This document shows, piece by piece, positions 15,389 to 20,681 of a stretch of 36,667 nucleotides of DNA. A program made the position numbers and the translations under genes. The stretch's first letter is position 1. The number at the start of each line of letters is the position of its first letter. The stretch covers positions 1 to 36,667 of the forward strand of contig JAHDCF010000029.1 in the NCBI GenBank assembly GCA_020630015.1, read 5' to 3'. The notes below the pieces were generated by a model that was not told where the DNA came from, did no database searches, and saw only the letters and a program-made list of their open reading frames with translations. The DNA comes from Planktomarina sp. GTDB lineage: Bacteria; Pseudomonadota; Alphaproteobacteria; Rhodobacterales; Rhodobacteraceae.

Positions 15389-15410
15389 TATTCCTATTCC
15401 GCCGCTTTTA
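15378..15410 (+). terminator. Possible weak terminator at the ABC exporter / RND convergence
   Basis: AAGCGGC at 15378-15384 pairs with GCCGCTT at 15401-15407 across a 16-base loop, followed by TT. The stem spans both stop codons. The long loop and short T-run make it weak. Confidence 0.3.
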
Positions 15411-18400
15411 GTGGGCTTGTGTTGGCCAATGTCGGCTTGGGTGAGTCAAAATCCCAGATGATTTCTTGACCCATACTTGATTTTGATTGGCGGCGCAGGG
15501 CCCAATCACGGGCGGCCTTGCTTGCGCGTCCCATCGACAGGCGCGCCAAAAGTCGCGCAACCCATATGGCGTAAGTGGTGGCCCAAACCCGCAAGGCCAG
15601 CATCGACGGGGTGAACAGCAATGTCAGCACAGTCGCGATTCCCAAACCGAAAACGACAGCAGTTGCCAGTTGTTTCCACCACAGCGATGTGGGTGAGTTT
15701 AGGGTATATCCACCGCCAAAGAAATCGAGGCTGAGGCCAAACATCATTGGGGCAAGACCCGCCATCGTTGTGATGGTCGTCAACAACACGGGCCTAATGC
15801 GATCTTCGGCCGTGCGCACAATCGCCTCGACCTTGGGCATATACCGGCCGTAATCTTGGTAAGTGTCGATCAAAACAATGTTGTTGTTCACGACAATCCC
15901 TGCCAACGCCACGATGCCGGTGCCTGTCATGATGATCGAAAAGGCCTGCCCCATGACCAGCATGCCAATCAAAACGCCCGTGGTCGACAACACAACCGCC
16001 AACAAAACCAGAACGGAATTATAGACGCTGTTGAATTGCGCCAACAGGATGATGAACATCAATCCCAACGCGCCCATGAAGGCTTGGCTGAGGAATGCTT
16101 GGCTTTCGGCTTCGTCTTCTTGATCGCCAGTCCATTCCCATTCAAGGCCCGCTGGCAGAGGGTTGGTTTCCAACCATTCCGTCAGTTTCGCCACGCGGGT
16201 CGCTGGGTTTACGATAACCTCTTGTTCGTCGCCATTTTCATCAACAACGGTTTCGGTCAAATCTGGTGTCACGGCGGCTTTGACGTCGAAGTATCGGGTC
16301 TGATCAATGCGGTTGATCATACCCAATTTGGCGATGGGTTCGCGGGTGATGAAATTTGACAAAGGAACCAAACCCGAAGGGGTGCGAACCTTTAAGGAAT
16401 CCAATGTCGATAAAACCCGATCCTCTTTGGGAAGACGAACCCGAATTTCAACTTCTTCTTCGGAACTTGGGACCCGCATCGTATCCAAGAAAATACCGCG
16501 GGTAACCAATTGCACCATGGCCCCCACAGTGGCCACATCTGCACCGTATCGGCCTGCCTTTTCCACATCGACGTTAATCTGCCAATCAATGCCAGGAAGG
16601 GGCAGGGTATCTTCGATTGAAGAAAGCCCAAAGGTGGATTCAAATTGTTTGCGCGCCAAGGCGGTGCCAGCAAGCAAATCTTCCCAATTGTCACCTTTGA
16701 TGCGCAAGTGCACAGGTTTTGCCGAAGCGGGCCCCATCGCAAGGTTCAGAATTTCGGTTTTGATGCCCGGCAAAACATCCAATCGCGTTTGCAACTGATT
16801 GATAATTGTATTGCCATCCAAGGCTTCGTCTTGTTCGCTGGTGGTCCAGGGAATGAAGCCAAAAATTTTGGTATCAGTGTCAATCGTTGGTCGATCTTCC
16901 CAAGGCACCAACTCGATTTGCGCCTGGCCAATGGTATCAAGGGGCGCGCCTGCACCACCTGTGTTGGCATTTAGCCCGCCTTCACCGGCAAAGGCGAAAG
17001 TGCTTTGAACACCGGGCTGGGACAGGATGATATCCTCTGCCTGGCGCAGCAATTTATCTTTTTCTTCCAATGACATGTTGCCACGCGCCCGGACGTAAAC
17101 GATGGCTTGCTCAGGCTCGGTCTCAACGAAGAATTCAACGCCTTTGTTGTTGCTGCCAAAATAGATGAATGTTGCACCGACAAATGCCACCACGAAGAAT
17201 ACAACCGCCAGAGGCATGACAGGGTTTCCAGTGAGAAATTGAACGAAATAGCCGAACGGGGTGCGCTGACGCTGTGTTTGGATTTTCTTTTCGCGGCGTG
17301 GAAGGATCATTCGCATGCCCGTGCGGAGTGCATTTCCCACACGTGGAAATATCGCGGCCAAAGCAAGAAACAACACGCCGACACCGACAACAAGAAAGGC
17401 AAACCCCAAAACGCCCAGCAATGCAAGCGCTGTCCATGCCAACATTGCAGGTACCACAGTGCCCAAAACTGTGCCGATGCTGCTTCCATCAAAGTTTGTC
17501 GAAACCAAACCAAATCCTGTTTGTACCATCCCCAGAACGGCGGCTGCCAAAGCCATCAAAACGAGAGCGCCAATTGCCAATAATATGTGCTGGTAAAACT
17601 TTGCATTCGCAATCCAAGTGGTGCGGTCATTCAAAAACTTCGCGATGCCGGCTGTTACCCCGCCCAAGACGGGCAGATAAATCAGTGCGACCACCAAAGA
17701 AGCGGACAAAACGAAGATCAGGGTCACAGGTAACATCCCCATGAACTGCCCCGGCACCCCGGGCCAAAATAGCATGGGAAGGAATGCACAGAGTGTCGTC
17801 GCGGTGGAGGATACAATCGGCCAGAACATCCTTTTGGCCGCATCGGTGTAAGCCTCCATCGGTCCTGCGCCGTCGCGGATCCGTTTGTCGGCATATTCCA
17901 CCACAACGATTGCGCCATCCACCAACATGCCCACGGCTAGGATCAGACCGAACATAACAATGTTTGAAATGGTGATGCCCATTAAGGCCAAAAGGGCAAA
18001 GCACAACAAAAACGACGTGGGGATTGCAAATCCAACCAACAGGGCAGGGCGGATGCCGAGGGCCGCCAACACAACAATCATAACCAAGGCGATGGCTGTA
18101 ATGACCGAACCTTCAAGTTGGTTCACCATGGAATCTACTTGCCGCGATTGATCGTTGGATGAGGTAACCGTCACGGCATTCTGCAGCTCTGTTGGCCACA
18201 GTTTGCGTTCTTTTTCAACTTCATCCACCACCAAAGCGGCGGTATCGATCAGGTTAAACCCTTTGCGTTTCACCACCTGCAAGGCAACGGTGGTTTCACC
18301 GTTAAATCGTGCTGTACCTTCGCGATCCTCAAACGTCAGGCCAATGGTTGCCAAATCGCCCAACGTAACAACCCGATCCCCGTTCGTTTTGACGGGCAGA

Positions 18401-19122
18401 TTATAAATATCCTGCGTTTCGTTGAACGAAGACGGAATTTTCACGGCAAAGCTTGACGTGGCGCTGTCGGCAGATCCGGCTGGGATCAATTGGTTGTTGT
18501 TGACAACAACGTTGATCAATTCACCTGCGGTTACATTATAGGCCTCAAGTTTGAGGGGGTCGATGATCACCTCCACCATCTCATCCCGATGACCGGCCAA
18601 TGTCGCACTTAAAACGGGTTCAAGACCTTCCAAACGATCTTGCAGGTTTTGGGCGAGTTTAAGCAACGTTCGCTCTGGCACCTCACCAGACAGGCTGACG
18701 ATGATGATGGGAAATTCAGAAAAGTTGAATTCGTTAATGGAATATTTATCGGCACCGCTCGGAAAATTCGCCTCAGCCGTGTTCATTCGGTCGCGGACAT
18801 CTGCGATGATTTTTGTTTTGTCCCAACCGAATTCAAACTCAAGCACAAGGTTGGCATAGTTATCCACGGCGGTTGAGGTCATCTTTTTCAGACCATCCAA
18901 ATCCGCCAGTTCAGTTTCCATCGGCTTGATCAGAAGTTTTTCACTATCCTCTGCAGAAATGCCCTGAAAAGGGAGGGAGATGATCAAAGCCGGGATTTCA
19001 ATATCGGGCTCACCCTCTTTGGGAAGCGTCACGTAAGCAAGTGTTCCGACAGCCAGCGATAATACGATGAATGCCAGCACCATACGGGCACGGCTTGCGG
19101 CCCAATCGACAAGACCGGTCAT
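15394..19122 (-). CDS. RND efflux transporter permease, enlarged form
   Basis: Inner-membrane proton-driven pump of the AcrB superfamily. At 1242 residues it is about 200 longer than AcrB. Seen: TM1 (11-33), porter sequence, TM2-TM6 (about 337-488), a second porter (660-1000) and TM8-TM12. Extra length comes partly from residues 490-630, which hold two or three extra hydrophobic stretches (512-532, 553-592) and a basic segment (LPRREKKIQTQRQR) before TM7 at about 634. In TM4 the usual VDDA is VDGA (Asp402, Gly403); in TM10 the relay lysine is replaced by Asn (VVNNNIVLID, 1079-1081). Its ATG overlaps the adaptor stop by 4 bases. Substrate unknown, and no outer-membrane channel gene lies nearby. 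Confidence 0.9.
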   Translation of the reverse strand: MTGLVDWAASRARMVLAFIVLSLAVGTLAYVTLPKEGEPDIEIPALIISLPFQGISAEDSEKLLIKPMETELADLDGLKKMTSTAVDNYANLVLEFEFGWDKTKIIADVRDRMNTAEANFPSGADKYSINEFNFSEFPIIIVSLSGEVPERTLLKLAQNLQDRLEGLEPVLSATLAGHRDEMVEVIIDPLKLEAYNVTAGELINVVVNNNQLIPAGSADSATSSFAVKIPSSFNETQDIYNLPVKTNGDRVVTLGDLATIGLTFEDREGTARFNGETTVALQVVKRKGFNLIDTAALVVDEVEKERKLWPTELQNAVTVTSSNDQSRQVDSMVNQLEGSVITAIALVMIVVLAALGIRPALLVGFAIPTSFLLCFALLALMGITISNIVMFGLILAVGMLVDGAIVVVEYADKRIRDGAGPMEAYTDAAKRMFWPIVSSTATTLCAFLPMLFWPGVPGQFMGMLPVTLIFVLSASLVVALIYLPVLGGVTAGIAKFLNDRTTWIANAKFYQHILLAIGALVLMALAAAVLGMVQTGFGLVSTNFDGSSIGTVLGTVVPAMLAWTALALLGVLGFAFLVVGVGVLFLALAAIFPRVGNALRTGMRMILPRREKKIQTQRQRTPFGYFVQFLTGNPVMPLAVVFFVVAFVGATFIYFGSNNKGVEFFVETEPEQAIVYVRARGNMSLEEKDKLLRQAEDIILSQPGVQSTFAFAGEGGLNANTGGAGAPLDTIGQAQIELVPWEDRPTIDTDTKIFGFIPWTTSEQDEALDGNTIINQLQTRLDVLPGIKTEILNLAMGPASAKPVHLRIKGDNWEDLLAGTALARKQFESTFGLSSIEDTLPLPGIDWQINVDVEKAGRYGADVATVGAMVQLVTRGIFLDTMRVPSSEEEVEIRVRLPKEDRVLSTLDSLKVRTPSGLVPLSNFITREPIAKLGMINRIDQTRYFDVKAAVTPDLTETVVDENGDEQEVIVNPATRVAKLTEWLETNPLPAGLEWEWTGDQEDEAESQAFLSQAFMGALGLMFIILLAQFNSVYNSVLVLLAVVLSTTGVLIGMLVMGQAFSIIMTGTGIVALAGIVVNNNIVLIDTYQDYGRYMPKVEAIVRTAEDRIRPVLLTTITTMAGLAPMMFGLSLDFFGGGYTLNSPTSLWWKQLATAVVFGLGIATVLTLLFTPSMLALRVWATTYAIWVARLLARLSMGRASKAARDWALRRQSKSSMGQEIIWDFDSPKPTLANTSPLKAAE

Positions 19123-20681
19123 TGAGCAGCCCCCCGCATCGTCGTTCTGACCTGCACACCTTCGGTGACAAACTCTTGGCCAACCACAATGATTTTTGCC
19201 ATTTCAGGCAGGCCATCCACCCACATGCCGTCGATGGTGTCGCGAAGAACGGTAACGGGTTTGAATTTCACCACATCATTATCATCAACCGTGCGCAGAC
19301 CCAAAGCGCCATTGGCATTCAAAGTCAGGGCAGAACCTGGAACCAAATGCGCTTTCGTCCCTGCAGATGCGATTGCGATATCTGCGGATTGTCCGTCACG
19401 AATGGTCAGATCTGGGTTTGGAACTTCGATTTCAACACGAAACGTACGTGTTGTTTGATCTGCGGATCGGGACAGAAAGGAAACTCTACCTTGCACCTCT
19501 GAACCGTTGAGCAAACGTGCCTGCGCCATTTTTCCAAGCGTCACACGGTTCACATCCACCTCAGTCACGAAACCCACCAGTTTAATTGGGTCAAGCTGGA
19601 TGACGGTGGCGCATAAGGCACCGGGTTGTAAAACGCTGCCCAATTCTGCGGTGTCCGATTCAAGGATGCCGTCAAATGAAGCTTTGATGATCAAACGCTC
19701 AATCTCTTTGGCGGCCGATGCAACGCCGGCCTCTGCACTTTCAATAGCGGCTTGCGTTGATTCAATGCCAGCCTCGGCGGTTTTGATATTGGCTTCGGCA
19801 GAACTAATGCCGGCTTCGGCATTGCGCACACCCGCTTTGGCAGATTCAATCCCCGCTTCCGCATTGCGGACACCCGCAGCGGCAGATTCAATTCCCGCTT
19901 CTGCGTTTCTGATTCCGGCCAGTGCGGTTTCAATTCCAGCTTCGGCTGCTTTAACGCCGGCTTGTGCTGCTTCAAGCGCGGCAGAGGCCGCAGCGACACG
20001 TGTTTGTGATGCAAAGCCACCGGCTTTCAGCTTTGATGCTGCGTTTTCGTTAATCTGCGCTTCTTCTAAGCGTGCGCGCGCTTCTTGCAAACGGGCTTCG
20101 GCGCTTGGCACTTGCGAACGTGCTTCATCCAGACGTGCCTGGAAACTGGGAACTTGTGCACGCGCCTCATCCAGTCGTGCCTCTGAACTTGGTACCTGGG
20201 CTTTCGCTTCCGCCAATCGCGCCTCGGCACTTGGGACTTGGGCGCGTGCCTCCAACAGGCGTGCTTCGGCGCTTGGCACTTGTGCCCGCGCTTCGGCAAG
20301 GCGTGCTTGGGCTTCGGCCAATGCGGTGTCGCGTGTTCCGGGATCAAGTTCGCACATGGATTGCCCGGCTTTCACGAAAGTTCCCTTACGCAATGGAGGG
20401 GAAATCACTGCGCCACTGGTTTCGGCCACCAAATTCACCTGACGTGCGGCTTGGGTTTGCCCCCTGACCAAAACCTGACTGGTCAAATCTTGCGATGCGC
20501 TTTCGATCACCACAACAGAAACCAGCTTCTCTTCGTTGGGATCCGTGTCTTCAGTGGTTTGTTCAGATGCGTTCTCTTCGGTTTGTGAAGCGCCCGAAGG
20601 CAGGATCAAATCGCGCTGAAAAACAAAAAGAAAAATCACAGCCGCAACAATAATGGCGGTCAATATGGGAAGAAGACGCAT
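19119..20681 (-). CDS. RND efflux periplasmic adaptor with repeat-expanded hairpin
   Basis: 520-residue membrane-fusion protein joining the RND pump to an outer-membrane channel. The ATG at 20681, with GAGGG just upstream, fits better than an in-frame start 90 bases earlier. An N-terminal helix (residues 3-21) is followed by an acidic linker. The lipoyl half is LVAETSGAVISPPLRKGTFVKAGQ (about 84-107). The hairpin (about 117-330) has five 14-residue repeats with a proline each (131-200), a tip near 216-226 (SKLKAGGFAS), and twelve heptads rich in AEAGIES (239-322). The second lipoyl half, IIKASFDGILESD, and the beta-barrel domain follow. The hairpin is far longer than in AcrA. The stop overlaps the permease ATG. 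Confidence 0.9.
   Translation of the reverse strand: MRLLPILTAIIVAAVIFLFVFQRDLILPSGASQTEENASEQTTEDTDPNEEKLVSVVVIESASQDLTSQVLVRGQTQAARQVNLVAETSGAVISPPLRKGTFVKAGQSMCELDPGTRDTALAEAQARLAEARAQVPSAEARLLEARAQVPSAEARLAEAKAQVPSSEARLDEARAQVPSFQARLDEARSQVPSAEARLQEARARLEEAQINENAASKLKAGGFASQTRVAAASAALEAAQAGVKAAEAGIETALAGIRNAEAGIESAAAGVRNAEAGIESAKAGVRNAEAGISSAEANIKTAEAGIESTQAAIESAEAGVASAAKEIERLIIKASFDGILESDTAELGSVLQPGALCATVIQLDPIKLVGFVTEVDVNRVTLGKMAQARLLNGSEVQGRVSFLSRSADQTTRTFRVEIEVPNPDLTIRDGQSADIAIASAGTKAHLVPGSALTLNANGALGLRTVDDNDVVKFKPVTVLRDTIDGMWVDGLPEMAKIIVVGQEFVTEGVQVRTTMRGAAQ
19716..19967 (-). repeat. Heptad repeats in descending arm of the adaptor hairpin
   Basis: Twelve 7-residue units (residues 239-322) of the type AEAGIES / AKAGVRN, mostly alternating as 14-residue pairs. 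Almost every unit has Ala-Gly followed by Ile or Val. In DNA this is a degenerate 21/42-base tandem repeat. Confidence 0.85.
20082..20291 (-). repeat. 14-residue repeats in ascending arm of the adaptor hairpin
   Basis: Five 14-residue units (residues 131-200) of the type ARAQVPSAEARLxE, with prolines at 136, 150, 164, 178 and 192, plus one degenerate unit before them (117-130). In DNA this is a 42-base tandem repeat. Confidence 0.88.

Follow-up and report, generated by a model that had tools for sequence, protein, structure and literature searches.

Matched arm lengths in the repeat-bearing hairpin of an RND-type periplasmic adaptor family

How can one protein alter two distant segments in concert? 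The question is raised by an adaptor gene lying in a 36,667-nucleotide contig of Planktomarina sp. (JAHDCF010000029.1; this whole stretch of DNA is hereafter called the window), the product of which carries a repeat array in each arm of a predicted helical hairpin. Its family makes this question testable, and also whether an adaptor's length serves as a ruler, is unconstrained or is taken up by coiling. It amounts to a natural experiment: in one orthologous adaptor-pump pair the pump and the tip are kept, the stalk varies about tenfold and the arms stay matched. The reading that we favor, at a probability of roughly 0.8, is that both arms of the hairpin grew by additions that kept them in register, that mismatches were selected away, and that length is loosely constrained.

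Table 1. Adaptor-pump locus of the window and parts of the adaptor hairpin.
Feature	Coordinates	Strand	Extent	Basis
RND pump (ACR_tran), partner of the adaptor	15394..19122	-	1242 aa	PF00873, 1e-136
RND-type periplasmic adaptor (membrane fusion protein)	19119..20681	-	520 aa + stop	TIGR01730, AlphaFold2, Foldseek
N-arm helix of the hairpin	20022..20333	-	aa 117-220, 104 residues	AlphaFold2, DSSP
Five 14-residue proline units (QVPSAEARL-type), N-arm	20073..20282	-	aa 134-203, 70 residues	Tandem Repeats Finder
Hairpin turn (tip conserved around L218/G222)	20007..20021	-	aa 221-225, 5 residues	AlphaFold2
C-arm helix of the hairpin	19698..20006	-	aa 226-328, 103 residues	AlphaFold2, DSSP
Twelve heptads, C-arm, glycine in 10 of 12	19719..19970	-	aa 238-321	Tandem Repeats Finder

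The adaptor belongs to a two-gene RND pump operon. Its gene lies directly upstream of the pump gene, the stop codon of the former and the ATG of the latter sharing four bases (ATGA, 19119-19122), and the same overlap is present at the 11 other homologous loci examined (11/11). No outer-membrane-factor gene adjoins the adaptor gene; such genes occur elsewhere in the genome. A longer reading frame, opened by an upstream ATG, would reach 20771, but homologues favor the start at 20681, and the corresponding M1 is almost invariant among the 51 sequences of alignment A1. The adaptor scores 167 bits with the RND adaptor model TIGR01730 (RND_mfp; cut-off 94.9). Lipoyl domain, beta-barrel and helical hairpin follow each other in the order expected of the family, as judged from the AlphaFold2 elements and the Foldseek matches, and the best Foldseek matches of the model in the PDB are AcrA and MexA, EmrA and MacA being found as well. 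The original prediction of an RND adaptor is supported by the family model, by an AcrA/MexA/MacA-like fold and by the RND pump partner. By its length the hairpin had been placed nearer to EmrA-like or HlyD-like adaptors; membership of either type found no support: the EmrA/EmrK model TIGR00998 gives 60 bits (cut-off 390.8), the HlyD-type model TIGR01843 gives 67.4 bits (cut-off 208.65), and the partner is an RND pump. Domain order and fold are common to the window adaptor, MexA and AcrA. AcrA and MexA are lipoproteins (PMC13328181), whereas the window adaptor has no cysteine before residue 110.

The region proposed to hold the repeats, 19716-20291 on the minus strand, corresponds to residues 131-322 of the adaptor. 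Both arrays are real. The N-arm does contain before the tip the five 14-residue units with one proline each that had been described: the prolines stand at residues 136, 150, 164, 178 and 192, i.e. exactly 14 apart. Of about 64.4 million placements of five random prolines in a 97-residue arm, 41 give this exact spacing (a calculation made post hoc). After the tip, the twelve heptads are present as claimed, but glycine is not found in each of them: the two heptads without it read ANIK and AAIE. Tandem Repeats Finder independently retrieved the N-arm array with a period of 84 bp (score 183) and the C-arm array with a period of 42 bp (score 129). Between N-arm units of the window the pairwise divergence averages 0.78 at synonymous sites (pS) and 0.15 at non-synonymous sites (pN); the C-arm 14-mers are looser (pS 0.68, pN 0.27). 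Since synonymous sites have diverged strongly between units while amino acids were kept, the repeats look like ancient sequence under constraint and not like the product of recent slippage.

Both arms are predicted to be helical. The AlphaFold2 monomer, built with the 51 sequences of alignment A1, has a mean pLDDT of 90.9 and a pTM of only 0.62; being a monomer model, it is silent on the oligomer and on the outer-membrane-factor partner. According to DSSP both arm helices are unbroken. The prolines sit within the first of them, in blocks of pLDDT 92-97 over residues 131-210, so that the proline repeats are helical in the model, a point on which the original prediction hinged. The arms had also been supposed equal from the count of repeats; with predicted helices of 104 and 103 residues, this equality extends to the whole arms. 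At 1.5 angstroms per residue the longer helix would measure 156 angstroms, in agreement with the earlier estimate of about 150 angstroms. The short homologue L040 is predicted to have helices of 27 and 26 residues, joined by a 5-residue turn as in the window adaptor, which thus exceeds it by 77 residues, or 11 heptads, on each arm. MexA aligns with L040, a member of the shortest class, without gaps through the hairpin; each arm of the window adaptor thus surpasses a MexA-length form by 11 heptads. A further difference from MexA and AcrA lies in its regularly spaced prolines and glycines. Among the forms with N≥69 (N, the length of the first arm, is defined below), 30 in number, position a is L/V/I in 96% and position d is A in 91% of cases in the N-arm, these values being 94% (V/I/L) and 96% in the C-arm. 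Alacoils are defined by alanine at one core position per heptad in both helices together with a close helix spacing; the arms, both of them aliphatic at a and alanine-rich at d, show the residue pattern, and the hairpin may be an Alacoil.

The predicted 156 angstroms are, as had been expected, well above the 58 angstroms of AcrA and the 47 angstroms of MexA, and exceed even the 127 angstroms of Aquifex EmrA (PMC4158417), the longest solved hairpin in the literature consulted. The AcrA hairpin is seven residues longer than that of MexA (PMC13328181). EmrA too has a very long antiparallel two-helix hairpin, with 11 heptads per helix (PMC4158417). Disparities nevertheless appear between the two: EmrA is devoid of a membrane-proximal domain, works with an MFS pump and has heptad shifts, whereas the window adaptor pairs with an RND pump and its family adds residues by multiples of seven (195/195, see below).

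To follow the arms among homologues, mostly Rhodobacteraceae, we measured N from the arm start to the tip leucine and C from the tip leucine to the next domain, and expressed the lengthening as k, the number of extra heptads. The tip was located by a profile made from ordinary-length members, with no condition imposed on C-N. The family search gave the best matches listed, so that the 195 distinct adaptors measured are no random draw, and a separate long-arm search served to enrich the sample for long forms. Among the matches listed, C-N equals 20 in 195/195 adaptors, and the residues added to the arms are multiples of seven in all of them. N takes the values 20, 27, 34, 41, 48, 55, 62, 69, 83, 97, 111, 125, 139, 153, 167, 195, 209, 223, 265 and 279, all inside one orthologous family. 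An additional genome, G792, has k=23, against k=29 for G144 of the same genus, and its C-N is again 20. Thus the two arrays vary together and not independently, as the original prediction required. The weakest tip scores among the 195 are those of L062 (-1.0 bits) and L060 (7.8 bits), and the offset is still 20 in both. Two sets were kept apart. The loci L098-L101 belong to another paralogue (C-domain E above 1e-30, tip-profile score below 0) and gave differences of 38-39; in 29 frames the N-domain was unmatched, and four long ones were refetched and measured while 25 were examined separately. L305 is cut by the contig end.

The commonest form is k=3 (101/195). All 30 forms with k≥7 have an odd k, as does G792, and growth by two heptads (14 residues) at once is the simplest reading of this. 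Within the window's own genus k is 11, 7 or 3, and k=37 is common to four genera that do not make one clade on the tree. A maximum-likelihood tree made from the other domains, with the arms left out, requires at least 62 changes of k, against at least 87 in 30 shuffles of the labels; with FastTree and 174 sequences the figures are 46 changes and, after shuffling, no fewer than 64. The maximum-likelihood tree places the 30 long forms in 8 separate groups. A query made of one long arm (E≤1e-20) matched 30 of 394 family genomes, of which 29 were measured as long and one is cut by the contig end. Over 385 genomes of the class the same query matched the window's own alone; at this threshold divergent types, e.g. 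those with 25-residue units, would be missed.

Such units were seen in marine adaptors of Pelagibacteraceae and uncultured Alphaproteobacteria. There, 19 of 25 frames gave arms, all with an offset of 20, the other six being unmeasurable (masked, cut by a contig end, shifted in frame or from another paralogue). Tips were taken by pattern and, in case of a double match, the match at the conserved place was used. In eighteen of these adaptors, at loci within L061-L082, each arm has 25 additional residues; in one (L059) it has 50. In L059 a 25-residue repeat is visible in each arm. The 19 sequences are close to one another and not independent. The marine arms are a distinct instance of matched growth, in steps that are not heptads. 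Thus equal change appears as the general rule, while steps of seven residues are a property of the main group.

The prolines follow a strict code. A single heptad position holds 463 of the 465 found in N-arms; for 429 of these the place modulo 14 is the same as well, namely b of every second heptad. Forms with N≥69 have 285 of 293 expected sites filled, and no proline was found in the 195 C-arms. Since 99 of the 101 ordinary k=3 forms already have a proline at one such position, the array appears to multiply a pre-existing proline.

At the tip, a leucine and, four residues on, a glycine are present in 195/195 adaptors, the corresponding L218 and G222 being invariant in the 51 sequences of the alignment. 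This conservation at every length argues that the stalk presents the tip to something, and the tip may dock a TolC-type channel. The RLS motif of TolC-docking adaptors is RxxxLxxxxxxS (PMC3391258). Its Ser/Thr is found at the tip of 163/195 adaptors, but its Arg, present in MexA and AcrA, in none of the 195, with Ala instead in 182. The combination of Arg, Leu and Ser that defines RLS membership is therefore absent from the family, and ordinary RLS docking to TolC cannot be assumed.

How could both arms change together? The additions would most simply be duplications of 14-residue (two-heptad) units. In an antiparallel coiled coil of two helices, with aliphatic residues at a and alanine at d, every such unit would extend the hairpin by about 21 angstroms. 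After an unmatched change in one arm, tip and base would no longer close. If unmatched arms fail to close, selection would remove the mismatches, and this would explain why matched forms alone are seen. Paired change would then take a two-step route, yet no mismatched-arm intermediate was found among the homologues measured. Placement of the paired indel between G144 and G792 gave nearly flat scores along the N-arm, and no site stood out. The stalk, in a presumed hexamer, would form a tube that keeps the conserved tip and the lipoyl domain about 155 angstroms apart in the window adaptor; in its relatives, if straight, this distance would reach as much as about 430 angstroms.

We then considered the partners. 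Long- and short-armed forms have orthologous pumps, the matched segments of which, at the same locus, are 55-80% identical. The length of the pump varies, in 12 homologues, in three internal and two C-terminal segments, which include residues 536-574, 962-969 and a place near 1226. All seven homologues with k≥21 carry the C-terminal insertion near 1226 (1-43 residues) and none of the five with k≤11 has it, while the segment near 965 is long in the same seven and also in one k=4 form. No variable segment follows arm length, and a ruler matched by the pump was rejected. Outer-membrane factors were sought with the PF02321 profile in 13 genomes, and frames matched over most of the profile were retained; the other rows are the adaptors themselves (G090:C1, G000:C35, G008:C77), one fusion protein and short partial matches. 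The retained frames measure 427-587 aa except for one in G144, which has 1220 aa but an untrimmed start. A ruler matched by a longer outer-membrane channel was also rejected. Finally, among the matches listed in nine long-armed genomes (30 loci, L311-L340, 7 of which are the long adaptor itself), 23 other adaptors have hairpins equivalent to about 0-4.7 extra heptads, as measured by alignment. A periplasm wide throughout the cell was rejected on this ground. Given the orthologous pump, the sizes of the outer-membrane factors and the short hairpins of neighboring adaptors, the long stalk looks specific to its operon.

These results bear on what the length is for. If the hairpin were a straight ruler, its length would match the pump-to-channel gap of each species, be adaptive and set the length of the conduit. 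Conservation of the tip whatever the length would suit such a ruler, as would the unequal hairpins of the EmrA, MacA, AcrA and MexA systems (PMC4158417), and the restriction of the insertion near 1226 to k≥21 homologues (7 of 12) indicates that the pump is not wholly indifferent. But N spans its whole range inside one orthologous family with an orthologous pump, the variable segments of which do not scale with k, and both the outer-membrane factors (apart from the 1220-aa frame) and the 23 other adaptors keep to ordinary sizes; we judge a ruler unlikely. Loose constraint with bending or tilting is ranked above it because the sizes of the outer-membrane factors and the neighboring adaptors are constant and the pump changes little. 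Thus the length in vivo is most likely loosely constrained, with a stalk that tilts or bends, perhaps at the prolines. A straight hairpin of 430 angstroms would exceed the ordinary width of the periplasm. A strongly tilted form has been suggested for an engineered, lengthened Lpp of E. coli (PMC8824477), which gives a precedent for the tilting of a long coiled coil. Constraint could also be looser still, further paired 14-residue units being near-neutral as soon as a first one is in register, selection acting on register and tip alone and length drifting. The 62 inferred changes of k, the 8 separate long groups on one tree and the variation within a genus (23 and 29; 11, 7 and 3) agree with drift, yet the N-arm units of the window are under amino-acid constraint, four genera share k=37 though they are not one clade, and the long-arm query found one genome of the class in 385; we give this version somewhat less than an even chance.

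Bending may itself be encoded. We propose tentatively, and with more doubt than belief, that hairpins reaching N=279 (about 430 angstroms) are too long to stand straight and that the proline array, perhaps with the glycines, acts as a bending code. If so, the trans-envelope conduit would be curved or coiled, or would take an indirect path between pump and outer membrane. In one form of this proposal, possible but equally doubtful, the N-arm prolines, perhaps with the C-arm glycines, kink the hairpin into a superhelix, with a shorter span or a wrapping of the assembly as the result. The single register of the prolines and the near-complete filling of their sites are in line with it, and the CusB hairpin offers a precedent for fold-back (PMC4446572), whereas in the AlphaFold2 model DSSP finds no break in either helix. 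Ala, Glu and Arg abound in the arms, which cross-match the coiled-coil Pfam families OEP and tropomyosin, as low-complexity sequence might. That the arrays are chance low complexity, a misassembly or a disordered proline linker in place of a hairpin is nevertheless very improbable: lockstep is exact in 195/195, synonymous sites have strongly diverged between units, and the helices are predicted with confidence.

Paired-heptad lengthening as such is already known. A review states the rule that length changes of adaptor coiled coils come in heptads, in both helices, and mentions Gram-positive adaptors said to bear extremely large hairpins (PMC4446572). Here the rule is measured in one orthologous family, over N 20-279, with no exception in 195; odd heptad numbers and a proline code are not mentioned in the accessible part of that review. 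Likewise, the accessible parts of the open-licence literature gave no report of this adaptor family, of hairpins so long or of proline arrays. What is new is thus the exact lockstep over this range of N, the proline code and hairpins that, if straight, would reach up to about 430 angstroms.

Several minor observations were made along the way. The hairpin spans of the other adaptors in the long-armed genomes lie exactly on a 14-residue ladder (67, 81, 95, 109, 123) in 17 of 23 cases. A 937-aa frame in G130:C4 was considered as a giant hairpin and rejected as a different protein; this locus (L341, G130:C4:164500-171500) is an unusual fusion of a membrane region with a part that resembles an adaptor and has a short hairpin. 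In the window, the Pfam family OEP (outer membrane efflux protein) matches the hairpin at 19908-20231 on the minus strand, barely over the cut-off, as a coiled-coil cross-match; such matches could get adaptors of this kind misannotated as TolC-type proteins. An antisense open frame of 311 aa with a TTG start (19507-20442, plus strand) spans the arms and looks like a by-product of the codon composition of the repeats.
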